A DNA stretch of 30,026 bases, taken from a virus. The translations under genes were made by a program, and so were the position numbers. The stretch is taken from the IMG/VR virus record IMGVR_UViG_3300021594_000545, positions 1-30,026 of that record; one strand, 5' to 3'. The notes beneath the pieces were generated by a model. The model was not told where the DNA came from. It did no database searches and was given only the letters and a program-made list of their open reading frames with translations. Numbering within the stretch: the first letter of the stretch is position 1; the number at the start of each line of letters is the position of its first letter. Below, piece after piece: positions 1-29,754 of the stretch.

Positions 1-756
1 GACACAGAAAATATTAGAGTAAGATATAAGTATGTAGGACCAATTTCTTCAAATTCTAGGGCATTTTGTAGACAAATGATTTCAAGAAATAAAGTTTACA
101 GAATAGAAGATATTGAGAATTTATCAAATCCTGAATTTGGCAATTACAATATATTTTTATATCGTGGATCATTCAATTGTAAACATGCTTGGGTTAGACT
201 AATATACAAACAACAAGGTAATATTAGAAATTCTGGATCTTCATCAAAAGGTGTAATAGATCAAGAAGTTGTCGTTGCGGCAGATACAAGAAACAAAGGA
301 ACAATAGCAGTTGGTGAAACAGGATTATATGCCCCTCGTGATGTAAAAAATCCAAGAAAAGCAACACAAAGACAAAGAGAAAAAGATCGAGACCCAAGAG
401 ATGGATCTCAATTTATTCCAAAATATAATAGAGAACCATTTTCAGAAGATTATTTCGAAGGATTAGAAGATGCATGTTGGGAAGGATATGAACCAATTGG
501 ACTTAAAGAAAAAGATGGTAAAATGGTTCCGAATTGTGTTCCAATTAAAGAAGCCATGGCAATGGAAAAAGAAGAATTTAAAACTTATAATGATTATCCA
601 GAGTCAGCAAAAAATAATGCGTGCAAAGCATTGAGATGGAGAGATGAACATGGTGATGAGGTTAAAGGAATGACACAAGTAGGTTGGATCCGTGCAAACC
701 AATTATGTAAAGGTGAAAACATTTCAGAAGAAACAATTTCAAGAATGAGTGGTTAA
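1..756 (+). CDS. Phage head morphogenesis protein, C-terminal part (5' end outside window)
   Basis: The frame is open from base 1, so the start lies upstream; the ATG at 76 is internal. The visible N-terminal part has a Cys/His pattern (RAFCRQM, then about 35 residues on, NCKHAWVRL) like the C-terminus of Mu F/SPP1 gp7-type minor head proteins, which sit at the portal and act in head assembly. Next comes a GxKxKDGKMVPNCVP motif known from other phage head proteins. The last stretch (YPESAKNNACKALRW..., then RANQLCKGENISEETISRM) is the first half of a small domain that in related phages runs on into the prohead protease. The gene stops inside a perfect 38-bp tandem duplication (717-792). With one copy removed, it reads through in frame into the protease at 783. 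Family assignment is from memory of motifs. Confidence 0.7.
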   Translation, partial: DTENIRVRYKYVGPISSNSRAFCRQMISRNKVYRIEDIENLSNPEFGNYNIFLYRGSFNCKHAWVRLIYKQQGNIRNSGSSSKGVIDQEVVVAADTRNKGTIAVGETGLYAPRDVKNPRKATQRQREKDRDPRDGSQFIPKYNREPFSEDYFEGLEDACWEGYEPIGLKEKDGKMVPNCVPIKEAMAMEKEEFKTYNDYPESAKNNACKALRWRDEHGDEVKGMTQVGWIRANQLCKGENISEETISRMSG

Positions 757-792
757 ACATTTCAGAAGAAACAATTTCAAGAATGAGTGGTT
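717..792. repeat. Perfect 38-bp tandem duplication splitting a head gene
   Basis: Bases 717-754 and 755-792 are identical (AAACATTTCAGAAG... to ...GAATGAGTGGTT). Because 38 is not a multiple of three, the second copy shifts the frame: the first copy ends in the TAA at 754-756, and the second supplies the ATG at 783 that opens the next reading frame. Removing one copy joins ...ISRMSG to FQRHKT without a break. It is either a real duplication or an assembly error. Confidence 0.95.
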
Positions 793-2441: not shown

Positions 2442-3344
2442 ATGAAAAATTCTTTAAAAAAATTGAACTTTTCTTACGACCTTGCAGGTTTGAGCTCATA
2501 CGTAGACCAATTGTCAACTGATATTATATCTGAGGCGGTTCTTGAACCAATCAGTATGAAATATTTGAATGTCATTCCGGGAATTAAAGGCACACAAAAT
2601 GTCAATCTACTTTCAGAAACTTTGCAAGTTCAAACTGGAACCAACTGTGGTTTCACAAACTCTGGAACAACAGAATTTACTGTGGCTCCATTGACAGTTC
2701 AGGCATATAAGGTGAATCAATCCCTTTGCCTGGAACAATTAAATACACTCTGGCTCGGGCAGTTTTTAAATGCAGGATCTTATAATGAAACTGCACCATT
2801 CGAAGCAGCAATCACAGATTTGCAAACTAAACAAATTAAGCGTTTCAACGAAGATCAATTATGGCAAGCAACTTCTGGTTCAAGCACATATTCTGGTTTC
2901 CTTGAATTATTTGCTAATGCAAACTCTGGAACTGGATTCAATGTTCTTACTGGTCAAACTGCACTTTGTTCCGTGACTGGTTCATCAACTCAACAACAAG
3001 CATACAACGTGCTTACACAAGTTGATAATATTATCAACGGTCTTGATAGAAATATTTTCCAGCGTGATGACGTTGTTATCTATATGTCGTTGAGTCAATT
3101 CAAATGCTACCTTACCGCAATTAGGAACGTTAATAACTTTCATTTCACTGAACCAAAACTTGGTTCAATTTACGAGGTATTCCACCCACAAACTAATTTT
3201 AGAGTTGTAGGTTGTCCTGGTATTGGATCATCTAACAAAATCATTGCAGGTCCCTCCCAATATATGCTAGCAGGCACGGATCTCATGAGCGACGAAGATT
3301 CATTTAGAGCGTGGTGGTCTATGGTGATACGATCACAGCAATAA
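2442..3344 (+). CDS. Major capsid protein (HK97-fold family), C-terminus apparently lost
   Basis: The 300-residue protein matches the remembered pattern of a Bacteroidetes-phage capsid family: NFSYDLAGLSSYVDQLS near the start, GIKGTQNVNLL near residue 48, a Cys-containing middle, RFNEDQLW, RDDVVIYMSLSQF near 207 and YEVFHPQTNFRVVGCPG, then the E-loop/P-domain-like end with GPSQYMLAGTDLMSDEDSFRAWW. In relatives the sequence goes on after the WxS motif with about 20-25 residues of the DNRE-V-R type. Here it ends abruptly in SMVIRSQQ. The next gene starts inside this end, in another frame, and seems to lack its own N-terminus. A deletion or misassembly at about 3320 explains both. The ATG at 2442 follows an A-rich leader. 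Confidence 0.75.
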   Translation: MKNSLKKLNFSYDLAGLSSYVDQLSTDIISEAVLEPISMKYLNVIPGIKGTQNVNLLSETLQVQTGTNCGFTNSGTTEFTVAPLTVQAYKVNQSLCLEQLNTLWLGQFLNAGSYNETAPFEAAITDLQTKQIKRFNEDQLWQATSGSSTYSGFLELFANANSGTGFNVLTGQTALCSVTGSSTQQQAYNVLTQVDNIINGLDRNIFQRDDVVIYMSLSQFKCYLTAIRNVNNFHFTEPKLGSIYEVFHPQTNFRVVGCPGIGSSNKIIAGPSQYMLAGTDLMSDEDSFRAWWSMVIRSQQ

Positions 3345-3739
3345 GTGGCACAGGGACCTTTTACGCTTTTGAGTTAATCCGAACTTCATCTCAATTTACC
3401 GAGACTGTCAACGCTTCTTTAGAAAACGGCACAATTTTTTATACTGATGAACTTACAACTTATTTTGCAAAAATGACACAAGATAAACGAAATGTTTTGA
3501 AGGTGTTAGCACAAAATCAAAAGTTGGCAATTGTATTCTCAGATAATAACGGTACATATTGGTTGATGGGACAGAATTATGGCTCATTCATTAGCGCAGG
3601 TTCACAAGTTAGCGGAAAAGCATTGGGAGATCAAAATGGTCTGAACATGACTTTCCAAGCGCTTGAACAACAACCGATCAATTCACTATCTGGTTCTTTG
3701 GCGTCAATCGCTCAAGGTATCACAGTAGAATCAATCTAA
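3311..3739 (+). CDS. Head-associated structural protein, N-terminally truncated
   Basis: The frame opens at the GTG at 3311, inside the capsid gene, but the protein only looks natural from GDTITAISGTGTFYAFEL onward. The rest (QFTETVNASLENGTIFYTDEL, DKRNVLKVLAQ, LAIVFSDNNGTYWLMG, GKALGDQNGLNMTFQALE) matches a Bacteroidetes-phage family, recalled from memory, in which an N-terminal stretch of about 60 residues normally precedes this point. No ATG with a leader fits a complete protein. It probably sits on the virion (tail tube or head decoration have been suggested for such proteins). The likely cause is the same deletion that shortened the capsid protein. A -1 fusion with the capsid gene is a less likely alternative. 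Confidence 0.5.
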   Translation: MVVYGDTITAISGTGTFYAFELIRTSSQFTETVNASLENGTIFYTDELTTYFAKMTQDKRNVLKVLAQNQKLAIVFSDNNGTYWLMGQNYGSFISAGSQVSGKALGDQNGLNMTFQALEQQPINSLSGSLASIAQGITVESI

Positions 3740-4246: not shown

Positions 4247-5446
4247 ATGAGTGAAACAAAAAAAGAATTTGATTTGAAGGTTTTGGACTTTGGTGCTGTT
4301 GCCCAAGTTCCAATAATTGAAGAAAATCTTATAGTAAATACAAGAACTCCTTGGGTTTATTATGGCATCGCAAATCTTGCACCTCAAGAATTGATTAGAC
4401 TTTACAATACAAGTCCAACGCATAGAGCATGTATTACATCAAAATGGTATGCAACAAGAGGAGAAGATATTACACTCAAAAGCCTAGAAGATACAAGACT
4501 TGAAATGGTCAATTCTATTGGTGATAAAGTATATGATCTTTGGAGTAAAGCATGTCTTGATTTTATATTGTATGGTGCATTTGCATTGAATATCGTTTGG
4601 AGAAGAGATCGTGAACAAGGTTTTGAAATGTATTATATGGACGCATCAAAACTGAGAGCCGAAAAATCAGATCTCAATGATAGAATAAATAATTTTTATT
4701 ACTCAGCGGACTGGGCTTTTCCAAAAAAATTCCAACCAAGAAAACTTCCTGCATTTAATCCAAATCATGAAGAAAATTCGCAAGTGTTTTATTATACCAC
4801 TCATAGTTGTGGGAATAATTATTACGCAACACCTTCATATTGGGGCGGCGCCACGGCAATTGCTACACAAATTGAAATTTTTAACTGGCATTTCAATAAC
4901 ATTAAAAATGGCTTAACACCATCTTTATTTGTTTCACTTAATACAGGAATACCAGGACCTGAAGAACGCGAGATGATCTATAATCAAATGAATGCAAAAT
5001 TTGGTGGATCGAACCAGGCTGGAAAATTATTTTTAACTTTTAGTGATTCAAAAGATAATGCCCCAGAAATTACACCTATTTCAAGTAATTCATCTGACAA
5101 AATGTGGGTTGAATTAAATCAAATGGTTCAAGAAACAATCCTTACATCACATCAAATTAGTTCACCAGAACTTTTGGGTATACAAGTTCCAGGATCACTT
5201 GGATCAAGTGAACACCTTGAAGCACAAGATCATTTTCAAAGACTTGTTGTGGCTCCGATCCAGACTGAAATTAAGGCAGTATTTGAAAAGTTATTGGCAC
5301 TTCGTGATGGTGGTGCACCTACAGAAATTGAGATCAAACAATTCCAAATGGTTTCTCTTCCTGATACAAAGCCAATTGAAACTGTCAATGTAAATAAAGA
5401 AGAAGGTGTTGATGTAAATAAAAATGAAACAATAACTGAACAATGA
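4247..5446 (+). CDS. Portal protein
   Basis: The 399-residue protein resembles HK97/PBSX-type portal proteins, which form the dodecameric ring at the packaging vertex. Supporting segments are NLAPQELIRLYNTSPTHRAC near the start, the FILYGAFALNIVWRRD stem-type segment, YMDASKLRAE, a long middle region with YWGGATAIATQIEIFNWHF and a C-terminal half with NAKFGGSNQAGKLFL, then an ISSPELLGIQVPGSLG...HLEAQDHFQ segment typical of these proteins. Its position after the capsid gene, rather than before it, is unusual. The start shares the 16-base sequence ATATTTAATAATATGA with the start of the gene at 17260. The stop overlaps the next start (ATGA). Confidence 0.8.
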   Translation: MSETKKEFDLKVLDFGAVAQVPIIEENLIVNTRTPWVYYGIANLAPQELIRLYNTSPTHRACITSKWYATRGEDITLKSLEDTRLEMVNSIGDKVYDLWSKACLDFILYGAFALNIVWRRDREQGFEMYYMDASKLRAEKSDLNDRINNFYYSADWAFPKKFQPRKLPAFNPNHEENSQVFYYTTHSCGNNYYATPSYWGGATAIATQIEIFNWHFNNIKNGLTPSLFVSLNTGIPGPEEREMIYNQMNAKFGGSNQAGKLFLTFSDSKDNAPEITPISSNSSDKMWVELNQMVQETILTSHQISSPELLGIQVPGSLGSSEHLEAQDHFQRLVVAPIQTEIKAVFEKLLALRDGGAPTEIEIKQFQMVSLPDTKPIETVNVNKEEGVDVNKNETITEQ

Positions 5447-6051
5447 GTCAAGCACTAATTCCTCAGAACATACTTCTCATAAGCGAAACGAAAATTAAAT
5501 CTTTCACTGACATCGACCAAAACGTGACGAGTTCAGTGCTTTTACCTTTCATTGGTGTAGTCCAGCAAACAAAATTGGAATACATAATTGGAGGAAGATA
5601 TTATAAAGAGTTATTGGATCAAGTTTCAGGAAATACTTTAACAACAATCAATAGCAATTTTTTAAATTACTTTGTATCTCCGATGTTGCTGTGGGCAGCG
5701 TATATGGAATGTCTCCCTTCCATTTTCATGAGAATTAAAAATAACGGAATTGTTAACGGATCAGAGCAAACTGTATCAATAAAAGAGATGCAATACATGC
5801 AACAAAGAGCCGATGATAGATCTCAATTTTTTGAACAAAGAATGATTGATGAACTAATTTTTAACTCCAACAATTATCCTCTTGTTTATAGTTGGAATCC
5901 ACAATCAGGCCTTCAACCACACCTCGGAAAAAATTACTTTTCCGGAATCCATTTGTATAATGGAAATAGATATGGAAATTTAAACCCAGACATAATTCCA
6001 AGAGACATGGTAATTTATGGAGACCCAACTTTTTATTGCTGTGGACTATGA
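5443..6051 (+). CDS. Probable head-tail connector (DUF6712-like)
   Basis: The 202-residue protein begins with ISETKIKSFTDIDQNVTSSVLLPFIGVVQQTKLEYIIG, a mostly helical pattern recalled from head-completion proteins encoded next to the portal in Bacteroidetes phages (DUF6712-like). A central helical part contains LLWAAYMECLPSIFMRIKNNG and a glutamine-rich MQYMQQRADDRSQFFEQR helix. The C-terminus is polar and aromatic. Such proteins bridge portal and tail. Its start overlaps the portal stop by ATGA and its own stop overlaps the next ATG, so the three genes are likely translationally coupled. Assignment rests on the N-terminal pattern and position. Confidence 0.6.
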   Translation: MSQALIPQNILLISETKIKSFTDIDQNVTSSVLLPFIGVVQQTKLEYIIGGRYYKELLDQVSGNTLTTINSNFLNYFVSPMLLWAAYMECLPSIFMRIKNNGIVNGSEQTVSIKEMQYMQQRADDRSQFFEQRMIDELIFNSNNYPLVYSWNPQSGLQPHLGKNYFSGIHLYNGNRYGNLNPDIIPRDMVIYGDPTFYCCGL

Positions 6052-8396: not shown

Positions 8397-8984
8397 TTAC
8401 CAACTTGAAGTATAATACCAATCAGTCCAAGCCTTTTTTTCTTTGTCTTTTTGTATTTCTACAAGAATGTCTTGTAATTCTTGGATCAAGGTTTCAACAT
8501 TTTCTTTATAATAATCATCTATAAGTTGTGATCCAAAGAAAAATCCAGGAGAGGGCGGTAAAAGTTTCAATGCAACTTCTGTATCAATGTAAACTTCTAC
8601 ATCTTCATATAAAGGAACAAACTTACCATCTTCTGTTTTTTTTGATCCAACCTCTTCTTGAATAATTTTTTTACCAGATTTTCTGAGACTTGTGTCAACA
8701 GTGTTGGCAATATCAAGTAGTTTTTCAAAATCTTCTTTGTGTAAATAGATGGGACTAGTTAAAGTCAAATCATCACTACAATAATGTGTCATGATATAAC
8801 CTTGAAGGGCATTGAATTTTCTCCAACTACAAACAAGTTCTGTAATACTCGAAATTCTTTCTTTTTTTACAATGTCTACTTGTTTACCATCTTGAATAAT
8901 ACTAACATGATGTTTTTCATTGTCTTCAAAAAACTCATGTGTTTTGAGTGCTGTTCTCTTGTAAAGATATTGATCTAGTCCCAT
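8397..8984 (-). CDS. Conserved phage protein of unknown function (MGLDQYLY family)
   Basis: The 195-residue protein begins MGLDQYLYKR, a start shared by a widespread family of small phage and bacterial proteins of unknown function (remembered pattern MGLDMYL...WRK.NA.h..). The WRKFNALQGYI segment near residue 54 matches the second conserved block, and the PPSPGFFFGS...DDYY segment near 145-160 matches the third. The C-terminal third is a charged helix with many Glu, Lys and Gln residues. It is expressed from its own promoter at 9032-9039, begins in an ACAACTATG context and has a terminator right after its stop. Role unknown. Confidence 0.7.
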   Translation of the reverse strand: MGLDQYLYKRTALKTHEFFEDNEKHHVSIIQDGKQVDIVKKERISSITELVCSWRKFNALQGYIMTHYCSDDLTLTSPIYLHKEDFEKLLDIANTVDTSLRKSGKKIIQEEVGSKKTEDGKFVPLYEDVEVYIDTEVALKLLPPSPGFFFGSQLIDDYYKENVETLIQELQDILVEIQKDKEKKAWTDWYYTSSW

Positions 8985-9031
8985 AGTTGTGTGTGTTCAG
9001 AATCCTGTCCCCGAGTTTGTTTGTTAAAGTG

Positions 9032-9039
9032 CAAATATA
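9032..9039 (-). promoter_or_regulatory. Bacteroidetes-type promoter -7 element, TATATTTG
   Basis: The - strand has TATATTTGCACTTTAACAAAC, close to the other copies. A T-rich TTTCAC lies a little more than 20 bases upstream. The leader to the ATG at 8984 is about 40 bases, longer than for the other copies. Confidence 0.7.
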
Positions 9040-9048
9040 AACCTCTTT

Positions 9049-9255
9049 TTACAATTGTGAAAAAAAATTTTCAAAAAAGTCTCTTGTGATGATTTCTCTT
9101 ACTGACCTACAGGCTTGTTTATTACCAACAAACTTACCTTCTTTTTTAGTAAAAACATGTCCCGTGTCAGGCCAAATATAAACACCACCTTCATTCATGA
9201 GATTCAAGGTTATCTTAAAATAGTGTTCATTCCTTCTTTTCATTTCTAAGTTCAT
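9049..9255 (-). CDS. Small hypothetical protein, 68 residues
   Basis: The frame can be extended to a TTG at 9285 that belongs to the promoter element, so the ATG at 9255 is the likely start (MNLEMKRRNEHYFKITLN). The product is basic, with a GGVYIWPDTGHVFTKKEGKF hairpin-like segment and then a helical ACRSVREIITRDFFENFF part. It looks like a small DNA- or protein-binding domain but matches no family I can name. Confidence 0.6.
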   Translation of the reverse strand: MNLEMKRRNEHYFKITLNLMNEGGVYIWPDTGHVFTKKEGKFVGNKQACRSVREIITRDFFENFFSQL

Positions 9256-9282
9256 AATGGTATGTTTTTGATTGTTAGAGTG

Positions 9283-9290
9283 CAAATATA
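9283..9290 (-). promoter_or_regulatory. Bacteroidetes-type promoter -7 element, TATATTTG
   Basis: The - strand reads TATATTTGCACTCTAACAA, nearly identical to the copy at 9802-9809. A TTTCTC lies about 21 bases upstream. It drives the 68-residue gene and touches the stop codon of the upstream gene at 9291. Confidence 0.75.
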
Positions 9291-9485
9291 CTAATTCTTT
9301 TGATCGAGAAAAAAATTTTCTTTATCTTTTTCTAAAAATTGAATTATGTCAAGATAAGTTTTCTTTTGGAGTCTAACTTTTGATCTATCGAGTGTGTCGA
9401 AAAATTTACGGTTAGATTCAGTCATTGGCAATGAAATTACATAATCATGTAATTCATCAATCTTCATATACTTAGGATTTTTCAT
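9291..9485 (-). CDS. Small hypothetical protein, 64 residues
   Basis: I recognise no family. The product (MKNPKYMKIDELHDYVISLP...) is helical and highly charged, with the pattern of a small three-helix protein. The gene is separated by only 5 bases from its upstream neighbour (ends 9491) and shares that gene's promoter. Its stop codon abuts the promoter element of the next gene. Confidence 0.6.
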   Translation of the reverse strand: MKNPKYMKIDELHDYVISLPMTESNRKFFDTLDRSKVRLQKKTYLDIIQFLEKDKENFFLDQKN

Positions 9486-18000: not shown

Positions 18001-18005
18001 ACTAA
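17799..18005 (+). CDS. -1 frame C-terminal extension of the tail chaperone
   Basis: The -1 frame is open from at least the T10 run to the TAA at 18003-18005. From the slippery site it reads QQDNVADDETENSF, then IKFWGWYSCISLLAQDKVWK, then IDSITDLSLITCLNHLSY and a charged INDLNQERNKQIKEID end. The WGWYS...LA...I..IT.L....CL..L pattern resembles C-termini of chaperone-like tail proteins in Bacteroidetes phages. The stop overlaps the next start as TAATG, a coupling that supports this frame. The shifted product (180 + 68 residues) is about the same length as the unshifted one. A single-base assembly error in the T10 run is the alternative. Confidence 0.6.
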   Translation, partial: QQDNVADDETENSFIKFWGWYSCISLLAQDKVWKIDSITDLSLITCLNHLSYINDLNQERNKQIKEID

Positions 18006-19681
18006 TGCCAACGCCAACTCCAACGCCAACACCAACTGTTTCTCCACTTCCAGATACAGTAAATCTCAGATCATTTGCTGATGATTTCTATTATCTAACA
18101 CAGAAACACAAGCAATTAAATTCATTTGGTCTTGGTAATTTGGAGTATATCACATATCTTCAACAACAAAGACAAGCACAAGAAAATACACATGATCAAT
18201 CACCATTGTATCCTTTGTTATTTGTTGTTCCATCAAAAGTTGTAAATAATTTAAGATATAAAGAGTGGAATTTCAACACTCTTGTAATGGATATTGTATT
18301 CAGAGATAATACAAATCTTGTTGATACAGTTTCTGATACATTGCAAATATTACAAGATGTAATTAGTCAATTCAAATATTCTGTTGAACAATCTCAAGGA
18401 GATTATTATAGAAAATATTTTATAACTGAAACAATCAATTGTATACCATTTATTGAGAAGTATGCAGACATGACAAATGGTTGGAATGCTGAATTAAAAG
18501 TTGAGACAATTTCACCATTAGATAGGTGTGCTGCGGCTTATAATACATTTACAGGAACACCTATATTTCATTTGGCTGGAATAAATCACAAAACAATTGT
18601 TGATGATTTTCAGTTATTAGCCAATTATCACAAACAATTAAATTCATTTGGTTATGGTGATCTTGGTGAATTTAGTTATAATGTGGATCAAAGACTAAAA
18701 CAAGATAATCCTAGTGATAATGCCGTAGTTTATCCTTATTTATATGTCATACCAGGAAATGTTGAACAACAATCAACACACATGACTTATAATTTTGATT
18801 TGATTGTGTCTGATATTATTGAAAGAGATTTAAATAATCAAGTAGATGTATTGAGTGATACATTACAAATAATGGATGATATTATAGGTCAATTTAGACT
18901 TAGTGTTGAAGATTCACTTGGTAATTTTAATAAAGAGTATTATTTGGATCAACCTGTTGTTTGTATTCCATTTATTGAAAAATATCATGATCTTCTTGGT
19001 GGTTGGAGTGCAAATATCCAGATCCAAGTTATGACACCACTTGACCGCTGTGATGCTGCGTTTTATCCATTTGAAACACTCACACCAACACCATCACTGA
19101 CTCCAACACTTACTCAAACACCAACTAATACTAATACTCCTACAACAACTCAGACCCCAACGAATACATCTACAAATACACAAACCCCAACTCAAACACC
19201 TACAAATACTCAAACATCAACTCCTTCTAATACACCAACTCATACACCGACTGCAACCAATACAAATACACCAACCACTACTTCTACTCCAACAAACACG
19301 CCAACAAATACAGAAACAAATACACCTACACCTACCCCTTCATTTACACCTACACAAACAATAACAAATACTCCATCAATAACATCAACACAAACTCAAA
19401 CTCCAACAAATACAGAAACAAATACACCTACACCTACTCCGTCTATTACTCCAACAAATACAGAAACTTCTACACCAACACCAACCCCATCAATAACACC
19501 AACATTTACTCCAACACCTTCTTCAACACCAGTTGTAGTAATAAACGAATGTATTTGGAATGAGAATGCTGATCAATGGAATCAAGAATATATTACATGG
19601 GATAACTGTCCAAGTTATTTATTACAAGAAAACTTGGATTATATCTTACAAGAAAATAACGACAAAATTATAATAACTTAA
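18005..19681 (+). CDS. Tail protein with duplicated domain and long Thr-Pro linker
   Basis: The 558-residue protein starts with a short MPTPTPTPTP run, then has two copies of one domain, about residues 17-180 and 196-355. Shared landmarks are DDF..L...HKQLNSFG.G.L, VYP.L.V.P, VD..SDTLQI..D.I.QF..SVE and C.PFIEKY.D...GW.A, then PLDRC. A 155-residue Thr/Pro/Asn/Gln-rich linker follows (about 357-512), then a short aromatic C-terminus (CIWNENADQWNQEYITWDNC). The domain looks like a tail-terminator or other small virion protein that was duplicated. The linker is probably an extended flexible spacer. It contains a 35-base in-frame direct repeat (19301-19335 and 19403-19437). Function is inferred from position. 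Confidence 0.6.
   Translation: MPTPTPTPTPTVSPLPDTVNLRSFADDFYYLTQKHKQLNSFGLGNLEYITYLQQQRQAQENTHDQSPLYPLLFVVPSKVVNNLRYKEWNFNTLVMDIVFRDNTNLVDTVSDTLQILQDVISQFKYSVEQSQGDYYRKYFITETINCIPFIEKYADMTNGWNAELKVETISPLDRCAAAYNTFTGTPIFHLAGINHKTIVDDFQLLANYHKQLNSFGYGDLGEFSYNVDQRLKQDNPSDNAVVYPYLYVIPGNVEQQSTHMTYNFDLIVSDIIERDLNNQVDVLSDTLQIMDDIIGQFRLSVEDSLGNFNKEYYLDQPVVCIPFIEKYHDLLGGWSANIQIQVMTPLDRCDAAFYPFETLTPTPSLTPTLTQTPTNTNTPTTTQTPTNTSTNTQTPTQTPTNTQTSTPSNTPTHTPTATNTNTPTTTSTPTNTPTNTETNTPTPTPSFTPTQTITNTPSITSTQTQTPTNTETNTPTPTPSITPTNTETSTPTPTPSITPTFTPTPSSTPVVVINECIWNENADQWNQEYITWDNCPSYLLQENLDYILQENNDKIIIT
19301..19437 (+). repeat. 35-bp direct repeat in the linker of the preceding gene
   Basis: CCAACAAATACAGAAACAAA... 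occurs identically at 19301-19335 and 19403-19437. The spacing is 102 bases, a multiple of three, so unequal recombination would keep the frame. A shorter third copy begins near 19451. Confidence 0.9.
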
Positions 19682-19682
19682 T

Positions 19683-20249
19683 ATGGCAAACTTACCAATT
19701 AGTCAATTACCATCAACAACAGCAATTACAAAAGACACACTTTTTGTTTGTGTTGCAAGTGGAACAACATACCAAGTAAAATCACCTTATATTGGACTTG
19801 GAAATTTACATGGATCATTTTATTCAACTGTGTCTCAAACTGCGGCAACAACAACATCCGCTTATGCGATGAGTGCAGAAACAACGGCATTCGGTCAAGG
19901 TATAACAGTGGTTGATGGATCAAAAATAACTACTGAAAGTGGAGGAACATTTAATGTCCAATTTTCAGTTCAACTAGACAAATCAGGAGGATCTGCTGGT
20001 ATTGTTTCAATTTGGTTTAGAAAAAATGGAACAAATATTGCTTATTCAAATACTGACGTGACGCTTGCAAATAATAATAATCTATTGGTTGCGGCATGGA
20101 ATTTTGTTGAAGAATTAAATGCTGGTGAATACATTGAAATTATGTGGTCAACAACAAATACAAATGCTTTTCTTGTTGCCGCTGGTGCACAAACAAATCC
20201 AACAAGACCAGAAACACCATCAGTTATTATAACGATGACACAAGTATAA
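19683..20249 (+). CDS. Tail fibre-type protein with C1q/TNF-like jelly roll
   Basis: The 188-residue protein starts with ANLPISQLPSTTAITKDTLF, a beginning common to phage fibre proteins (ISQLP...). Then comes a GSFYSTVSQTAATTTSAYAM segment, ITVVDGSKITTESGGTFNVQFSVQL, IVSIWFRKNGTNI and LNAGEYIEIMWSTTN. This is the strand pattern of a C1q/TNF-like jelly roll, a trimeric fold that in phages and bacteria binds sugars or receptors. The short size and fibre gene neighbourhood suggest a receptor-binding tip or fibre adapter. It overlaps nothing and starts in a TTAATATG context. Confidence 0.65.
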   Translation: MANLPISQLPSTTAITKDTLFVCVASGTTYQVKSPYIGLGNLHGSFYSTVSQTAATTTSAYAMSAETTAFGQGITVVDGSKITTESGGTFNVQFSVQLDKSGGSAGIVSIWFRKNGTNIAYSNTDVTLANNNNLLVAAWNFVEELNAGEYIEIMWSTTNTNAFLVAAGAQTNPTRPETPSVIITMTQV

Positions 20250-20272
20250 ATTAAAAATTAAAACAAAATAAT

Positions 20273-21079
20273 ATGCCTACTTTAAGTGGACAAACAATAC
20301 AATCGACATACCAAGGCTTATTGAAATTAGCCAACTCAACATCAGGTATAACATCAACTCCTCAACAAATTCAAGATGGCTTGGGTAATGACACAGGAAC
20401 AAGAATTGCAACAAACTTCTTGTCTGCACCAAATGTGTTTCCAATGACCTCATCAGCAAATTTCATTCCTGATTATATGGGACCTGGATTTCTTTCTGCC
20501 GCGGTTGTCCCACAAGCAAACCAACAAAATAAACTAAATGCTTTCTTATTTTATGACACAGGTAAATATGATTATTCGGCAATTACCTATTCAATTGTTT
20601 CTGCAACAACCACGACTGATGTTGTAGATGTTGCTTTTTATAATACACAATATTCATCTCAAACAGGAGTAATCCCCTACCAATTGATCATGTCAGGAAT
20701 AACACTGTCAACATCACCAGGTGGAACATTTTTTGTTCAAACTAATTTACCATCAACACTTTCTTTTTCAGGATCTGGTGGTGGTTGGTATTACATGGTT
20801 ATGAAAATTTCTAATTCTGGCGTAACGCCCACCATTAGGTATTCACAAAATGCTATTTCTGTAAGTCCTACCGCTTCATTGATGGGTTTCCAAAATGGGC
20901 TTGTGAGAAATAGATCTGTAAACGCAACTTCTGCTGGTATTGGAACAAATAATAATATTCCATGTTATATTTTGAACGGGACAACCAATTTCCAAACATC
21001 ATTCTCAACCACTGATGGAGCAATAAACACAGGTGTGAATCCATACATTATGGGATTTGCTTTAAGATGTATTAAGTAA
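20273..21079 (+). CDS. Tail fibre or structural protein
   Basis: The 268-residue protein begins PTLSGQTIQSTYQGLLKLAN and STPQQIQDGLGNDTGT, a start I recall from fibre proteins of Bacteroidetes phages. The main part is rich in Ser, Thr and aromatic residues with many beta-strand patterns (KYDYSAITYSIVSATTTTDV..., GTFFVQTNLPSTLSFSGSGG, MVMKISNSGVTPTIRY). It has no coiled coil. Its 23-base spacing from the C1q-like gene suggests that the two form one receptor-recognition unit. Confidence 0.55.
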   Translation: MPTLSGQTIQSTYQGLLKLANSTSGITSTPQQIQDGLGNDTGTRIATNFLSAPNVFPMTSSANFIPDYMGPGFLSAAVVPQANQQNKLNAFLFYDTGKYDYSAITYSIVSATTTTDVVDVAFYNTQYSSQTGVIPYQLIMSGITLSTSPGGTFFVQTNLPSTLSFSGSGGGWYYMVMKISNSGVTPTIRYSQNAISVSPTASLMGFQNGLVRNRSVNATSAGIGTNNNIPCYILNGTTNFQTSFSTTDGAINTGVNPYIMGFALRCIK

Positions 21080-21080
21080 T

Positions 21081-21662
21081 ATGTGGGAATATTCTGAAGA
21101 AGCATTAAAGATCATGGTTAAACTTTTTGTTGATAAACTCAGAGAAAGAGTTGCAGCAAAAGATTATCCATATGGTAATCCTGAAAGAGGACAGTCAAAT
21201 AAAATTGCTAGTGGTCAATTATACAATTCAATTACTGGTGATGTTGAAATTGATGAACAAGGAAATCCTGTTGCTGTTCTTGAATATGTGGATTATTTCA
21301 AATTTGTAAATCAGGGTAGACAACCATATACAAAACGTGTCCCACTCAATGCACTTTTAGAATGGATCGATATTAGAGGACTTAGAGGAAGAAATAGAGA
21401 TAGAAGAGGAAGATTTCGTTCAATGACAAATCTAGAACTTGCGTGGGCGATACAAACTAATATATTTAAGTATGGTATAAGACCAACAGATATTTATGAT
21501 AGAGGATTAGATGATTTAGAAAATATATTTGCTGACTTTCCAAATAATCTACCATCAAATTTAAGAGGTGCGGCAGAAAATATATTAGAAGAAGCAGCAA
21601 GAGATATTGCGGCATTTATTGATAATCAAGTAATCATAGAAAAAATAACAATAGAAGAATAA
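21081..21662 (+). CDS. Tail completion protein (HK97 gp10-like)
   Basis: The 193-residue protein fits HK97 gp10-type proteins that join tail tube and head. It has a helical start with KLFVDKLRERVAA, VLEYVDYFKFVNQGRQPYTK near residue 75, VPLNALLEWIDIRGLRG near 93, and LAWAIQTNIFKYGIRPTDIYDRG near 121-143. The VNQGR-x-P...V-x-L-x-A-L...W motif is characteristic. Its position among the fibre genes rather than next to the connector gene is unusual. Start and stop overlap or adjoin the neighbours by one base or so (TAATG at 21661). Confidence 0.7.
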   Translation: MWEYSEEALKIMVKLFVDKLRERVAAKDYPYGNPERGQSNKIASGQLYNSITGDVEIDEQGNPVAVLEYVDYFKFVNQGRQPYTKRVPLNALLEWIDIRGLRGRNRDRRGRFRSMTNLELAWAIQTNIFKYGIRPTDIYDRGLDDLENIFADFPNNLPSNLRGAAENILEEAARDIAAFIDNQVIIEKITIEE

Positions 21663-23305
21663 TGAGTTTAGATTTACAAATAAAACAAATGCCATTGGGT
21701 ATGACCAGATCACATGCTGATCACACATGGAACATACAAATGAATGATTACTCTGCTTATACTGATATAAGATTAGTTGTTGACATCTATAAAAATCCAT
21801 ATCTCAATGACAGTGGATCAACACAAGACTCAGGGAAAGTTGCAAGATTATTGGTTCCAGTAAATGAAGTTGGTCATTGCATTTTCAATGTTGAAACAAT
21901 CATTGTTAACTTAGTAGATAAAAATCCTAGAAACTTAGGTGGAATTTCTACAACTGGTATTACAGGGACTGAGTTAATGGATCCATATTTGGTTAGAGTT
22001 GCAAATTCACAAACAACATCAATTAGTGCCAACACATCACAAGCAACTATTGTCAATGATAGAACATCAACCATTTCATTTTCTAATGGTTTTAATGGAG
22101 GTTATGAAGGGTTTAGTAATATCTATCAGATCAATGAATATCGTTGTCTCTTTGGTGTCCAGTTTACGTCTGGTGGAACAACTAATACAATCATACCAAC
22201 AAATTATTCTGCATATACATCTTATACTGGTGGAACCATATCTCCATACTCCGCCGAGACACAACCTTATGGTGTAATGATATGGCCAGGAGTTATGGAT
22301 AACAAACAACTCTCAACAAAATATTATTATTCAGGAAATAATTTAACTGGTCAATATAATTATCTTGATACAAAAGTTTATGATTGGCAAATGTCAACCG
22401 GATCTACAAGAGGAGAATTTATGTCAACCTTTGGTAGTGAAACAATCCCAATGACAATCCTCGGATCCAATGTTTATCAAACAAGGTGGAGAACACACTA
22501 TTATAAATGTCCAATTGTAATTGGTTTCATGTATGGTGGAAATCCATTATACAACAATACAACACAAGTTGGTGGAATAATGTATCTACAAAAAACAAAT
22601 GGTAATGGTCAATATAATTATGATACAATACAATCCAACAAAATAGATTTTACATCAAGACTCAATTTACAAACAGTTGCCCCATATTCTTACCTACAAC
22701 AAAGAATTGCGTATGGAGTTTTTAAACCAAACCCAACTATAAGAACAGATTCTGATGTGGCAATTTATTTAACAAATGGTGTATTAAATTATGATTATGA
22801 TGTATATGGTTCAAGTGAAATAGTTCAATATAAAATGGTAGGTGAAGAATGTTTGAATGATCCTATTTCATTTCTATTTATGACCCGTAATGGTATATGG
22901 GACACATACACATTTACAAAGAAAAGTGAAAAAAGATATGCACCAAATAAAAAAACATATTCACAACAAAAATCATTAAATACAAAGTGGTGGAATAGAC
23001 AATCTTATGATTCAAGTGAGACAGTATTTTTTGGTTATGCAGATGAGATAATGACAATTGATAGTGGATATGTTTTACAAAATGATGGAGTTATCATTGA
23101 AGAATTATTGTTATCTCCGTATGTTTATATGATTATGGATAATTGGTTGCCATCAAACAATCAAGATTTCATTTACCCCTATTTAATTCCATGTAATATT
23201 TTAAATAAAGATGTTAAAGTATTCCAACAAAAATATCAGAGGATTTTCCAATATACAATGGAAGTGAGACAAACTCCATATAGACAATACGATTTAGCAA
23301 TATAA
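21662..23305 (+). CDS. Tail structural protein (baseplate or distal tail candidate)
   Basis: The 547-residue protein is a beta-rich virion protein without a catalytic motif I can see. It is rich in Tyr, Asn and Thr. Landmarks are MPLGMTRSHADHTWNIQMNDYSAYTD at the start, VPVNEVGHCIFNVETIIVNLV near residue 68, and a C-terminal MIMDNWLPSNNQDFIYPYLIP and QKYQRIFQYTMEVRQTPYRQ. Size and position (before a 1251-residue tail-tip protein) suggest a distal tail or baseplate part. Fibre attachment is another possibility. Confidence 0.5.
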   Translation: MSLDLQIKQMPLGMTRSHADHTWNIQMNDYSAYTDIRLVVDIYKNPYLNDSGSTQDSGKVARLLVPVNEVGHCIFNVETIIVNLVDKNPRNLGGISTTGITGTELMDPYLVRVANSQTTSISANTSQATIVNDRTSTISFSNGFNGGYEGFSNIYQINEYRCLFGVQFTSGGTTNTIIPTNYSAYTSYTGGTISPYSAETQPYGVMIWPGVMDNKQLSTKYYYSGNNLTGQYNYLDTKVYDWQMSTGSTRGEFMSTFGSETIPMTILGSNVYQTRWRTHYYKCPIVIGFMYGGNPLYNNTTQVGGIMYLQKTNGNGQYNYDTIQSNKIDFTSRLNLQTVAPYSYLQQRIAYGVFKPNPTIRTDSDVAIYLTNGVLNYDYDVYGSSEIVQYKMVGEECLNDPISFLFMTRNGIWDTYTFTKKSEKRYAPNKKTYSQQKSLNTKWWNRQSYDSSETVFFGYADEIMTIDSGYVLQNDGVIIEELLLSPYVYMIMDNWLPSNNQDFIYPYLIPCNILNKDVKVFQQKYQRIFQYTMEVRQTPYRQYDLAI

Positions 23306-23306
23306 T

Positions 23307-26300
23307 ATGCTCCAAATAAGAACAATCATACAAGGTGAAAGTAAATTCATTGATTTATATCAAAATGAACCAATACTTCTATCTCTATCATTTGCAGAAT
23401 TACAAGATATAACCAAAAAAAATTCATCTTATTCCAAGGCATTTTCAGTCCCTGGATCCAAGCAAAATAATGAGATATTCAATTTCTTTTTTGATCTAAA
23501 TTCCATTCCAACAACATTTAACCCTAATAATAAATTTGAAGCACAATTATTATGGGATGGTTATCTCATTTTACAAGGATATATTAGACTCAACGGCGTG
23601 ACGGTTGCCAATGGTGAAATAATTTATCAGTGCACCTTCTATAATCAAGTTGGAGATTTAATGGCAAATATTGGAGACAAATATTTGTTTGATTTAGATT
23701 TATCTTATTTGAGTCATCCATATGATGATAATGTAATCAATTATTCAAACTTAGATCCAAATTTATTTCCATTAACAGGAAATACAAATTATTCATATCA
23801 AAATGGAAAAACTTTTTGGGGGTTATTTAATATTGGGTATGAGTATGTGAGTGGAACAACACTTAATTTTGACGAAACACCTTTAATACAATTCACACCA
23901 GTTGAATATACAACAGGTTCTACGGTTTATGCCCCCGTGACGCCATTTTTTGATTATTCAGGAACACCAGTACACAATTATTATTTCAAACCTGCATTAC
24001 AAATTAGAGAGTTATATGAATCTATTTTCAGAGAAGCAGGTTATCAATTACAAAGTGAATTCATGGACACAGCATATTTCAAAAGGTTTTATATGCCTTT
24101 GAAATTTGTTGATGAAAGTATATTTTCAAGAAATGCAATTATTCCGTGTTATACATATACAAATATAGATCCAACACCAACACTTAGTATTTATACTCCA
24201 ACATATACAAATCCATCATCAGGTCTTACTTGTAATACATTGGGATTATCTGCAAATACAACAACCTTAGTTTTACCAGAAGAATTTTCTGGAACATATA
24301 CATTCAGATTTACTTTCGATGTAAATAGAACACAACCATGTGATCAATTCAGTTTCATTATACCACTTGTTTATTTGACTTTTGATGATGGCACACAACA
24401 AACAGTAATATACTCAAATTATTTTTGCACAGAGCCAATTACAACACAAGTTAGTTTTGATCAAACATTTAATTTTACTGGAACATCAAATATTCAATTT
24501 TATTTCCAAGGTGAATATGCAACAATTAGTAATTTTAATTTCCAAATTATAAGTTCACAGAGATATATTCCAACTGGATCAACAGTGAATTATGATATTG
24601 AATTTCCAGATAATGATTATAAGCAAATTGATTTTTTGACAAGCATAAATAAGTATTTCAATTTAGTTGTTGTTCCAAACCCAGATGATCCTGATAAACT
24701 AATAGTTGAACCAATAGTAGATTATATTGGTAAAGGAGATACATTAGATTGGACAACAAAGATAGATTTTTCTGCAACACAAAATCTTTATCCAACTACA
24801 GAACTTGTTAATGGAACACTTGAATATGAATTTAGATTAGATCAAGATTATGCCAATCAAGATTTTAAAACACAAACAAATAGAATATTTGGGACAGATC
24901 GATTCCAATTAGGATTAGAATATAAAGATGAAACAACAAAATTTACTTATTTATTCTCAAGTCCAATAGAAATTACAGTTCAAAACGCCTATGTCCCATT
25001 GATTACTCTTGAATCAATGTCAAAAGTAAAAACTATAGATAAGTCTGGCCAAACACAACAAACTTTTGTTCCATTCAAAATTTTACCTAAAGTTATTTTT
25101 AGAGGTCCAACAATTCCAAATGATAACTATGGTCTTATTGGTGGAACTGGTCAAACAACTGGTTCATCTAGTTGCACATCTGGAATTACATTTAATCTAT
25201 CTACATCATTATCTTATCCTCCTTATGGTGTAAGTTATACAGATTGTTTTGGTGTCCAACAAGACCTTTATTTATATCCTGGGTCAAATTCAATTCCTGG
25301 TTGTGCAGATCCATCAAGTTTGAGACAAGCAGTCCCTTATCTTCCGCCACTAAGCATTACAATTACAAATTCTGGAACTACTTGTGGAACAGTTTATGAA
25401 GGGGCATCATATCAATATTGGTATATGGATGAATACCAACAAGACCGTTGGAGTAATATAAATAGATTTACAACATATCCATTCTCATATACAGGATTTA
25501 GTCATTATACAAATTTTAGAGGTGAAGATAGAACAAATATTACACCATCTGAATTTTCATTTATTGCAGATGATTTGTATAATGTTTATTATGAAGATTA
25601 TGTTCAAGATATAATTTCAGAAGAAAATAAAATTTATTCAGCCAAGATTTATTTATATCCACAAGACATACAAAAGTTGAGATGGAATGAAAGAATTATT
25701 ATCAATAACACATATTTTAGAATCAATAAAATATCAAACTTCAATGCCCTTGAACCAAGTATATGTGATATTGAATTAGTGAAACTAACAAGAGAATATC
25801 AATCACACCCGGTTTTATATTATGATTTAATACCTTGTGCTTCAGGATCCACATTATATTCCAATAGTGATTTAATGTATAATCTTTATGCTTATGCAGG
25901 AAACTATGTTAAATTATTTACAGATGACCTAAATTATTTAGGTTGTTATAATGTTCAAATTGGTCAATATGATTCAACTAGAACATATAATCACTATTAT
26001 TTATCTTCAGGATATACACAACAATTAGTTGGATTATACCCTGATTGTGGTTGCACGGGTAGAACAGGTTTTAATATAATTCAAGAAGAACCTGGTGATT
26101 CTAGATTTTTCTTTTTCTCAGGTCTTAGTTGTGTTGATTCAGCCACAACATATAATTTTGTTTCAACATCTTATGTATTGAGTGGTGGTAGTGCGTCATA
26201 TAAAATACAAAATAGTGCAACAACATTGACTGAGTGTGTCTACGCTGTTGGTCAAACATATAGTTCAATAACGGATTGGATTGAAATTTCTGGCTATACT

Positions 26301-27062
26301 GATTGCACTGATTGTAATTATGTGCCGCCTACACCAACTCCAACAATGACACCTACAGTTTCAATAACACCATCTAATACTCCAACTGTATCAATTACTC
26401 CTTCAACAACTCCTTGTATTGAATGTTATGAAACAACATTCCAAGCAACAGGATATGGTCTTGTAATATGGCAAGATTGTGATGGAATAACACTCGATTA
26501 TTTTGTTATTCCTGGTGAAACATTCAATGTAAATTGTGGTGGTGGCGGAGTTAGATATGGAACGATGACAGGGCCAGGTACCGTGACGTATGATAATCTT
26601 TGTTCAACAAATTGTATAACTCCTACACCTACACCTACAAATCAAGAATCACCTACACCAACTCCTACAATTGGAACAACACCTACTCCTACACCAACAG
26701 TTTCAATTACTGCAAGTAATACACCAACTCCATCACCAAGTGCAAGTGGGACTGATCTTTATATTTATGCAAAGTATATCAATAATCAATCATCAGGTGA
26801 TTTAACTTATTCTGTAAATATGGGAACCCCTGCAAATATTGGACCAATTACAACAAGTTCATGTTTGTATTTTTATACAATAAATGGTCTACAAATTGGA
26901 GACACAGTTGAATTTACAGATTCAAATACACAAGCAATTGCAGGATCTACAACAGTATGTCCTAGTGGACCTGGAGGTTTTGGTTGTAATTACAATCATA
27001 CCGTATTGAGTTCAGGTGCTGAATTTGTTTACATAACGGTTGATGGGCAAAATGCATGTTAA
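23307..27062 (+). CDS. Large tail-tip protein with C-terminal Thr-Pro linkers
   Basis: The 1251-residue protein opens with ESKFIDLYQNEPILLSLSFA, then AELQDITKKNSSYSKAFSVPGSKQNN, the pattern of tail-tip proteins of Bacteroidetes phages (a peptide before ...FSVPGS.. is recurrent). The long middle part (about 100-1000) is beta-rich, with WTTKIDFSATQNLY, EFRLDQDYANQDFKTQTNRIFG and TPLITLESMSKV segments. Two short Pro/Thr linkers (about 1008-1035 and 1105-1148) flank a small domain with paired cysteines (CIECYETTF...CGGGG), and a last domain follows (1149-1251). It is probably a baseplate or tail-tip hub that carries recognition domains. Confidence 0.6.
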   Translation: MLQIRTIIQGESKFIDLYQNEPILLSLSFAELQDITKKNSSYSKAFSVPGSKQNNEIFNFFFDLNSIPTTFNPNNKFEAQLLWDGYLILQGYIRLNGVTVANGEIIYQCTFYNQVGDLMANIGDKYLFDLDLSYLSHPYDDNVINYSNLDPNLFPLTGNTNYSYQNGKTFWGLFNIGYEYVSGTTLNFDETPLIQFTPVEYTTGSTVYAPVTPFFDYSGTPVHNYYFKPALQIRELYESIFREAGYQLQSEFMDTAYFKRFYMPLKFVDESIFSRNAIIPCYTYTNIDPTPTLSIYTPTYTNPSSGLTCNTLGLSANTTTLVLPEEFSGTYTFRFTFDVNRTQPCDQFSFIIPLVYLTFDDGTQQTVIYSNYFCTEPITTQVSFDQTFNFTGTSNIQFYFQGEYATISNFNFQIISSQRYIPTGSTVNYDIEFPDNDYKQIDFLTSINKYFNLVVVPNPDDPDKLIVEPIVDYIGKGDTLDWTTKIDFSATQNLYPTTELVNGTLEYEFRLDQDYANQDFKTQTNRIFGTDRFQLGLEYKDETTKFTYLFSSPIEITVQNAYVPLITLESMSKVKTIDKSGQTQQTFVPFKILPKVIFRGPTIPNDNYGLIGGTGQTTGSSSCTSGITFNLSTSLSYPPYGVSYTDCFGVQQDLYLYPGSNSIPGCADPSSLRQAVPYLPPLSITITNSGTTCGTVYEGASYQYWYMDEYQQDRWSNINRFTTYPFSYTGFSHYTNFRGEDRTNITPSEFSFIADDLYNVYYEDYVQDIISEENKIYSAKIYLYPQDIQKLRWNERIIINNTYFRINKISNFNALEPSICDIELVKLTREYQSHPVLYYDLIPCASGSTLYSNSDLMYNLYAYAGNYVKLFTDDLNYLGCYNVQIGQYDSTRTYNHYYLSSGYTQQLVGLYPDCGCTGRTGFNIIQEEPGDSRFFFFSGLSCVDSATTYNFVSTSYVLSGGSASYKIQNSATTLTECVYAVGQTYSSITDWIEISGYTDCTDCNYVPPTPTPTMTPTVSITPSNTPTVSITPSTTPCIECYETTFQATGYGLVIWQDCDGITLDYFVIPGETFNVNCGGGGVRYGTMTGPGTVTYDNLCSTNCITPTPTPTNQESPTPTPTIGTTPTPTPTVSITASNTPTPSPSASGTDLYIYAKYINNQSSGDLTYSVNMGTPANIGPITTSSCLYFYTINGLQIGDTVEFTDSNTQAIAGSTTVCPSGPGGFGCNYNHTVLSSGAEFVYITVDGQNAC

Positions 27063-27081
27063 AAAAATATATTTATAAAAA

Positions 27082-29754
27082 ATGAGTTGCAATACATACA
27101 TACATAATGATACATACGGTGGCAGTAAAAATATTTCAGGCACAACTTGTGATGGAACTGTTGGCTATTATACTCTCACTTATGGTCAAAGTATATGTAT
27201 GGATGATTCAAAACCATTACTCAATTTAAATGGTCTAGAATTATCAGGATCATGTTTGGCAATTACTCCAACACCAAGTCCAACAAATCCAGCATATTGT
27301 ATTTTTACAGGTCAAACTTATTTTAATGCTCCATTTCAATGTCCAAATGATGGACTTACTTATTTTGACACTTATGGAAAATGGTTATTTAGTATTGACT
27401 CAACTTCTGGTGGATTTACAGGGCATCCTGATCTAACTTTTACAATGACAAATGGAACACAAACACAAAATGTTATATTGTATTCAGGAGACACATTTAC
27501 AGAATTTATTTATCCAAGGTTAAATTTTGTTTATACAGAAACAGGTTGTGTATCTACAACATATAATGATTGGGTTATTTCATCAGTAAATCCAAATTAT
27601 CCATTATGTCCATTCATTACACCAACCCCAACAATGACTCCTACAGCAACATTAACACCATTTGCACCGACCCCAAGTATAACTGCAACAAGGACATCTA
27701 CACCAACGCAAACTCCAACACAAACACAAACTCCAACAAATACTCCTACATATACACAATCACCTACTCCTACAATAACATCAACTAATACACAAACGCC
27801 AACTAATACTAACACACAAACACCAACAATAACACAAACGCCAACACAAACAACTTTTGATCCTGAATGTGAGAAATTGTATTTCTCAGGAACTGGTGGA
27901 ATATCAGGATTTACAGGAAATTATACATTACAAAGTGGAACAACCAGAACAGGAATTTATAGAAAAGGAAATCTACAAATGGATTGTGGACCACTCAATG
28001 GAAATAATTGGTCATTCTGGATCCAAGATGCTGGACTTGGAAGAATATGGTATAATATTTCTGATCCTAATAAATTGGAATATTTTGTGTTGTCAAATTC
28101 TAATCCACTTCCTAACTGTGGAACATTCCAAAATTCTGTAAATATAGATTACATTGCAACAGGTTATACAAGTGGAGACTTAGTTTACCCACAAATAGGA
28201 ACAGGTCAAACTACATTTGGTGGTTGGAGTTATTCAATTGAATTATTATATTGTATTACCCCTACACCTACACTCACTCCATCTAATACACCAACGCCAA
28301 GTAATACTGCCACACAAACTCCAACACAAACACAAACTCCAACAAATACTCCTTCAATTACTTCCACTAAAACTCCTACACCTACACAAACAGCAACACC
28401 AAGTAATACTGCGTCAAATACACCAACACCTACACAAACAAAAACACCAACGCCTACTCCAACGAGAGCATATTTTTCATTTAATTTAGAAAGTGCAGGC
28501 TTTACTAATGCGTGCAATGCATGTCAATATGGAATGCCAAGTCCACAAACAGTTTATTTACCAGCAACAGGAGATACATTCCCAGATGTTGGAAGTATAA
28601 TTTATTCAGATTCTAGTTTAACAACTCCATATAATGCTGGGTCTACTCCTTATCATTATTATAATATTTCTGGTCCATTTGTTATGCAAATAAATGGATC
28701 AACTGGTTATATTTTATCTATTACAGATTGTAATACTTGCCCAACACCTACACCTACTCCATCATTAACTCCAACCAATACACCAACAATGACTAATACC
28801 CCAACAAATACAGCAAGTCAAACACAAACTCCAACTAATACACAAACACCTTCTCAAACTGCAACTAATACACAAACACCAACGAATTCAATGACTCCAA
28901 CTAAGAGTCCAACACCTACCCAAACTATAACACCGACAAATACAAACACAGGATCTCCTACTCCTACACCAACAGCAACAGTTGGTTATGATGCCGATGC
29001 TGAAGCATATCTTAATGCTTTGGTTGCAAGTGGAGCAACAGGTATGAGTGCAACAATAAGCGCCGCAACATTTACATTATTTACTTCATTGAAAAGTAAT
29101 AATCTTTATACTAAGATTGATGTAATGTATCCATTTGTTGGTGGCACATCTGGATCAACAAGAATTGATGCAAAAAATCCTAGTAGTAGTTCATATCATT
29201 TATCATTCCAAGGCACAGGATGGACTTATAATGCGTCTGGTGCAACATCTAATGGTGCATCAAATACTTATGCCAATACTTCATTTAATCCAAGTAATAA
29301 TACATTGAATGATCAACACGCTTCAATTTACATGTTAGATAATACTGTTTTGACTGGAACTGGAAAAAATTATATTGGAGCATCATCTGGTGGTAGATAT
29401 TTTGTTATTGCTCAAGATGGAACACCAAAAGAATTTTATGGTATTTCCAATACTGGTGGATCTACAGCAAATGCACCACTTCCACAAGGTCAATATTTGA
29501 TTTCATCAACAGCAAATACAATGAGTAATTTGTATAGAAATGGATCATTGAGGACAAGTGGAACGAGTTCAAGTGCACAAAATATCAATATCCCAGTTTA
29601 CATTGGGGCCATGAATAATGGTGGAACTGCAATACAAAACTATGCAAATACATATTCATTCGTCACGATCGGTAATGGATTAAATAATACTGAAATATCA
29701 AATCTATACACAATAATACAAACTTATCAAACAAGTTTATCAAGAAACGTTTAA
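27082..29754 (+). CDS. Multidomain tail fibre with four Thr-Pro linkers
   Basis: The 890-residue protein is a string of beta domains joined by Thr/Pro/Asn/Gln-rich linkers. Linkers are at about residues 62-70, 179-258, 392-462 and 553-635. Domains lie between them and at the C-terminus (636-890). The last domain begins YDADAEAYLNALVASG and contains YTKIDVMYPFVGGTSGST and KNPSSSSYHLSFQGTGWTY, the pattern of a lectin-like (LamG/concanavalin-type) C-terminal fibre domain seen in freshwater phage fibres. This is likely the receptor-binding fibre. Linker 2 and linker 3 share a 39-base identical repeat that is 606 bases apart, in frame. An A-rich leader (AAAAAAATATATTTATAAAA) precedes the ATG. Confidence 0.65.
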   Translation: MSCNTYIHNDTYGGSKNISGTTCDGTVGYYTLTYGQSICMDDSKPLLNLNGLELSGSCLAITPTPSPTNPAYCIFTGQTYFNAPFQCPNDGLTYFDTYGKWLFSIDSTSGGFTGHPDLTFTMTNGTQTQNVILYSGDTFTEFIYPRLNFVYTETGCVSTTYNDWVISSVNPNYPLCPFITPTPTMTPTATLTPFAPTPSITATRTSTPTQTPTQTQTPTNTPTYTQSPTPTITSTNTQTPTNTNTQTPTITQTPTQTTFDPECEKLYFSGTGGISGFTGNYTLQSGTTRTGIYRKGNLQMDCGPLNGNNWSFWIQDAGLGRIWYNISDPNKLEYFVLSNSNPLPNCGTFQNSVNIDYIATGYTSGDLVYPQIGTGQTTFGGWSYSIELLYCITPTPTLTPSNTPTPSNTATQTPTQTQTPTNTPSITSTKTPTPTQTATPSNTASNTPTPTQTKTPTPTPTRAYFSFNLESAGFTNACNACQYGMPSPQTVYLPATGDTFPDVGSIIYSDSSLTTPYNAGSTPYHYYNISGPFVMQINGSTGYILSITDCNTCPTPTPTPSLTPTNTPTMTNTPTNTASQTQTPTNTQTPSQTATNTQTPTNSMTPTKSPTPTQTITPTNTNTGSPTPTPTATVGYDADAEAYLNALVASGATGMSATISAATFTLFTSLKSNNLYTKIDVMYPFVGGTSGSTRIDAKNPSSSSYHLSFQGTGWTYNASGATSNGASNTYANTSFNPSNNTLNDQHASIYMLDNTVLTGTGKNYIGASSGGRYFVIAQDGTPKEFYGISNTGGSTANAPLPQGQYLISSTANTMSNLYRNGSLRTSGTSSSAQNINIPVYIGAMNNGGTAIQNYANTYSFVTIGNGLNNTEISNLYTIIQTYQTSLSRNV
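27709..28353 (+). repeat. 39-bp direct repeat between two linkers of the fibre gene
   Basis: CAAACTCCAACACAAACACA... occurs identically at 27709-27747 and 28315-28353. The offset of 606 bases is a multiple of three, so recombination would delete or duplicate one whole domain (28 to 392 in residue terms about 202 residues) without losing the frame. Confidence 0.9.

Follow-up and report, generated by a model that had tools for sequence, protein, structure and literature searches.

The perfect 38-bp tandem duplication near the left end of the viral DNA stretch analysed here (30,026 nt; hereafter, the window) most likely does not represent real biology. Comparison with related contigs argues that the additional 38 bp are very probably an artefact of assembly, in which pieces of one phage contig overlapping by 38 bp would have been joined with the overlap left unmerged. 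We favor this explanation because the unit occurs once in relatives, whose gene is unbroken, because the junction is blunt, and because the same contig holds a second gene-breaking junction. The source record of the window is a single 30-kb viral contig, with no sequence beyond it.

The tandem repeat and the gene it interrupts

Positions 717-754 and 755-792 of the window (+ strand, as are all features below) are exact, adjoining copies of a 38-bp unit (100% identity), with no divergence between them. Since the unit length is not divisible by three, the copies are out of frame, as the original prediction had described. The window contains no other exact tandem duplication with a period of at least 10, and the computed chance expectation (~1e-16) means that this one cannot have occurred by chance. 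The self-match run at a shift of 38 is exactly 38 long, leaving zero microhomology at the ends of the repeat. As read from the sequence and its ORFs, the junction creates a TAA stop codon at 754-756, with the T supplied by the first copy and the AA by the second. The first ORF ends at this stop; the second frame runs open through 756-1409, and its earliest ATG is at 783. The first copy (717-754), which is present once in contigs L001, L002, L003 and L020, corresponds, in P0003 numbering, to residues N357-G368 of the unbroken protein. Of the two copies, one, designated here as the second (755-792), is extra and, by comparison with these relatives, probably an assembly artefact.

Sequence comparison indicates that the two ORFs on either side of the repeat are one gene and not two. 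The intact gene is a single ORF of 573 aa in L002 and of 560 aa in L003, where it is open at the contig start, and in L001 the reading frame continues unbroken across the duplication site. By family match, its product is assigned as an XkdF-type prohead protease. The C-terminal part (756-1409; ORF and Pfam evidence) carries the Peptidase_S78_2 domain of XkdF-type phage serine proteases (PF14550, E 2.5e-14) and also matches head maturation proteases in PHROGs; proteins P0002 and P0003 score 53.8 and 51.5 bits for PF14550, above its curated cut-off of 24 bits. The N-terminal part (1-756; recognized from its ORF, relatives and a PHROG search) is open at the left end of the contig and shows a weak match to a portal-annotated PHROG. 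The single unbroken ORF of the relatives agrees with the proposal that one protein had been cut into two frames, and with the suggestion that a single gene could be turned into two by faulty assembly. What that proposal named a “head protein” and a “protease gene” is, in relatives, the same gene. Nor does the second copy create a protease start, as had been claimed, because the ATG at 783 corresponds to the internal Met366 of the intact protease.

The cut falls in a conserved region. Alignment of 21 sequences shows no variation in the motif GE.IS..T..RM ... RHK to either side of the break. The AlphaFold2 model of the intact protein is poor overall (mean pLDDT of 58), but residues 311-370 are modelled as helical with pLDDT of ~70-88, and the break occurs at the end of a predicted helix spanning residues 360-368. 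In the intact protein, the match to phrog_2859 extends across the break (residues 311-410), but in the first ORF of the window it halts there. The cut is thus predicted to lie inside one helical domain with an invariant motif; alignment of the joined protein to its homologues likewise places the junction within one conserved domain, in line with the earlier reading of RANQL..GE.IS..T..RM..RH as a single domain.

As a separate observation, the helical RANQL domain (P0003 residues ~265-415) is optional in this group. It is absent from some relatives (in the set L058, L060, L061, L062 and L069-L071), and in L062 and L069-L071 a piece matching it sits elsewhere or in a different order.

Relatives of the window at the duplication site

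An IMG/VR search with the 38-mer returned three contigs (L001, L002 and L003), each with one copy, and a protein search additionally found L020, which is near-identical downstream and also carries a single copy. These four contigs, from four other metagenomes, all have an open frame at the site and represent independent assemblies in which the repeat does not occur. They share 99.1-99.9% identity with the window over downstream blocks of 2,334-2,570 bp, and the 751 bp upstream of the duplication are 98.8% identical to L003. We found no relatives in a scan of contigs from 84,980 bacterial and archaeal genomes, and the only match among GenBank phages was one short stretch at 79% identity.

The original prediction had left room for a functional split, with two proteins made from the two frames, or with fused and split forms produced by frameshifting or re-initiation. 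Both frames are indeed open and meet inside the repeat, and the second has an ATG at 783, as such an arrangement would need. However, a stop at the duplication site occurred in none of 60 tblastn segments spanning it (those covering residues 347-378 of the intact protein), which represent 59 distinct contigs, all single-copy and open in frame there, L005 being the same contig as L003, and the 38-bp repeat is private to the window contig. The cut also lies within the invariant motif and a predicted helix, and no Shine-Dalgarno-like sequence is seen before the ATG at 783, although some phage hosts do not use this sequence. We consider a functional split or switch highly improbable. An equally slim prospect is phase variation, in which a duplication real to the lineage would reversibly toggle the protease between intact (one-copy) and split (two-copy) states through slippage or recombination between the copies; no relative supports such a switch.

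Two further candidates were rejected. An intron or mobile-element insertion site at the split is contradicted by the relatives, none of which has an insert at this spot in the protease gene, and by the lack of any Rfam match in the window. Tandem duplications are also not a common trait of this phage group, as the other exact tandem repeats of relatives mostly have extra overlap; one other blunt case (L007, position 13547, period 66) lies within a low-complexity, PT-rich repeat.

The strains differ upstream of window position ~664 and are nearly identical downstream of it: L002 shows 24 mismatches to the window in positions 460-754, with zero between 664 and 754. L001 starts at position 664, 53 bp ahead of the repeat.

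Further junctions in the window and in related contigs

A second lesion is found 2.5 kb from the duplication. At 3323/3324, the window is missing 263 bp that are present in L001 and L003, and the two sides of the junction overlap by 2 nt. The deletion truncates a capsid-like ORF (2442-3344) from 323 to 300 aa, leaving it with an incorrect tail; the gene that follows (3311-3739) loses its start and shrinks from 176 to 142 aa. Neither gene is damaged in L001 or L003, and most relatives have complete versions of both. The sole family match of the capsid-like ORF is a PHROG of unknown function, and we presume its capsid-like nature from its position in the gene order and our own reading. L002 stops at window position 3317, 6 bp from the junction. 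The start of L001 and the end of L002 appear to mark places that are hard to assemble, which alone cannot separate artefact from real variation.

Pairwise comparison of near-identical contigs revealed private deletions of 103-371 bp in five of them, at sites where other contigs are continuous: 277 and 371 bp in L003, 231 and 135 bp in L077, 103, 348 and 321 bp in L081, 270 and 119 bp in L012, and 175 bp in L082 (relative to L083). Near window positions 5290-5630, two contigs fail in overlapping yet different ways. The overlap at most of these junctions, taken from BLAST coordinates, is 0 or 1 nt, and random end-to-end joins at this base composition are expected to overlap by 0.8 nt on average. 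Overlaps of 0-1 nt are the signature of non-homologous joins, and by this sequence evidence the private near-blunt deletions are probably assembly joins. We infer the same status for the 263-bp deletion, so that join errors would be present both in the window contig and in others of the set. This second gene-breaking junction, typical of misassembly, also counts against a functional split or switch at the protease.

A third difference between the window and its relatives is intergenic. A 227-bp segment kept in L003 (locus L003:9540-9780), L077 and L074 is missing from the window at 9279-9291, where it would lie between two copies of a 13-bp repeat, AGTGCAAATATAC. Its loss may be natural or a repeat collapse, and the 13-bp repeat is perhaps a promoter element. 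The stretch between ~9,306 and 30,026 is collinear with L075, L079 and L080, bar a few tiny gaps. Long ORFs in this part (18005-19681, 23307-27062 and 27082-29754) contain Thr/Pro-rich repeats of 12-102 bp (window 18008-28904), as in stalk or fibre-like proteins.

Introns and intron-like inserts in the capsid-like gene of relatives

In at least five relatives, the capsid-like gene is interrupted by group I introns (Rfam RF00028, 55-68 bits; L073:2022-2292, L007:11839-12066, L054:3737-3959, L037:5789-6025 and L050:3229-3556), all five near residues 297-300 of the 323-aa protein. A second family of inserts, 220-270 bp long and accompanied by a frame change, occupies about four other positions in this gene (residues ~45, 100, 105 and 229; L006:12749-12998, L018:8374-8625 and 8804-9070, L029:9645-9896, L030:12978-13241, L055:3820-4085 and L008:3675-3895). 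These inserts have in common a conserved core as well as a fold that shows covariation, with two-sided changes in 30 of 53 pairs, and a possible GCATA/TATGC P7-like pairing was read by eye. The inserts of L006 and L018 gave no Rfam match at E 0.1; from their sequence, the family looks like small group I introns missed by Rfam. More generally, phage capsid genes are known to harbour introns (PMC3706429).

Discussion

A single process could explain both gene-breaking lesions of the window. If two pieces of one contig truly overlapped by 38 bp within the conserved section of the XkdF-type protease gene and were simply placed one after the other with no overlap check, the outcome would be a perfect tandem duplication lacking any additional microhomology, and the duplicated overlap would shift the frame and lead to a stop. 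Were the pieces instead separated by a real gap of a few hundred bases, the same kind of joining would leave a near-blunt deletion, such that a negative gap yields a duplication and a positive gap a deletion. The mixture of strains around position 664 is a possible reason for a break of the assembly graph there. We infer that the duplication arose in assembly or scaffolding software and not in the phage or during DNA amplification, though a library chimera may instead be responsible.

A real and recent duplication arising in a single phage lineage (or a chimera formed during library amplification), inactivating the protease in a dead or complemented mutant, is in our estimate unlikely, though well above the prospects of a functional split. 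Exact identical copies are what a fresh duplication would leave, and a duplication in one strain would give the same contig sequence. Against this, the repeat has zero microhomology at its ends, whereas most slippage duplications have some; and the duplication would break the protease, normally essential for prohead maturation, while this contig also carries a break in a second essential head gene. The single copy in near-identical contigs from four other metagenomes also speaks against it.

Under the assembly explanation, the window clearly illustrates how a metagenomic contig with an unmerged overlap turns one conserved head gene into two false genes. Since private near-blunt joins recur across several of the group's contigs, any gene split or truncated capsid gene in such contigs should be compared with sister contigs before it is given a biological reading.

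The interrupted gene resembles known XkdF-type prohead maturation proteases (PF14550) in that its C-terminal ORF matches the family and sits upstream of a capsid-like gene. It differs from them, in this phage group, by the fusion of the protease to a long preceding N-terminal region that weakly matches a portal PHROG, and by the optional inserted helical domain. As for the duplication, falsely duplicated sequence close to contig boundaries is a known type of assembly error (PMC8081667). The present case is akin to the “homotype” false duplications of that work, in having identical copies near contig ends, one copy in better or independent assemblies, and a false gene structure; unlike those, which were described in long-read vertebrate assemblies at about read length, it involves 38 bp in a metagenomic phage contig.
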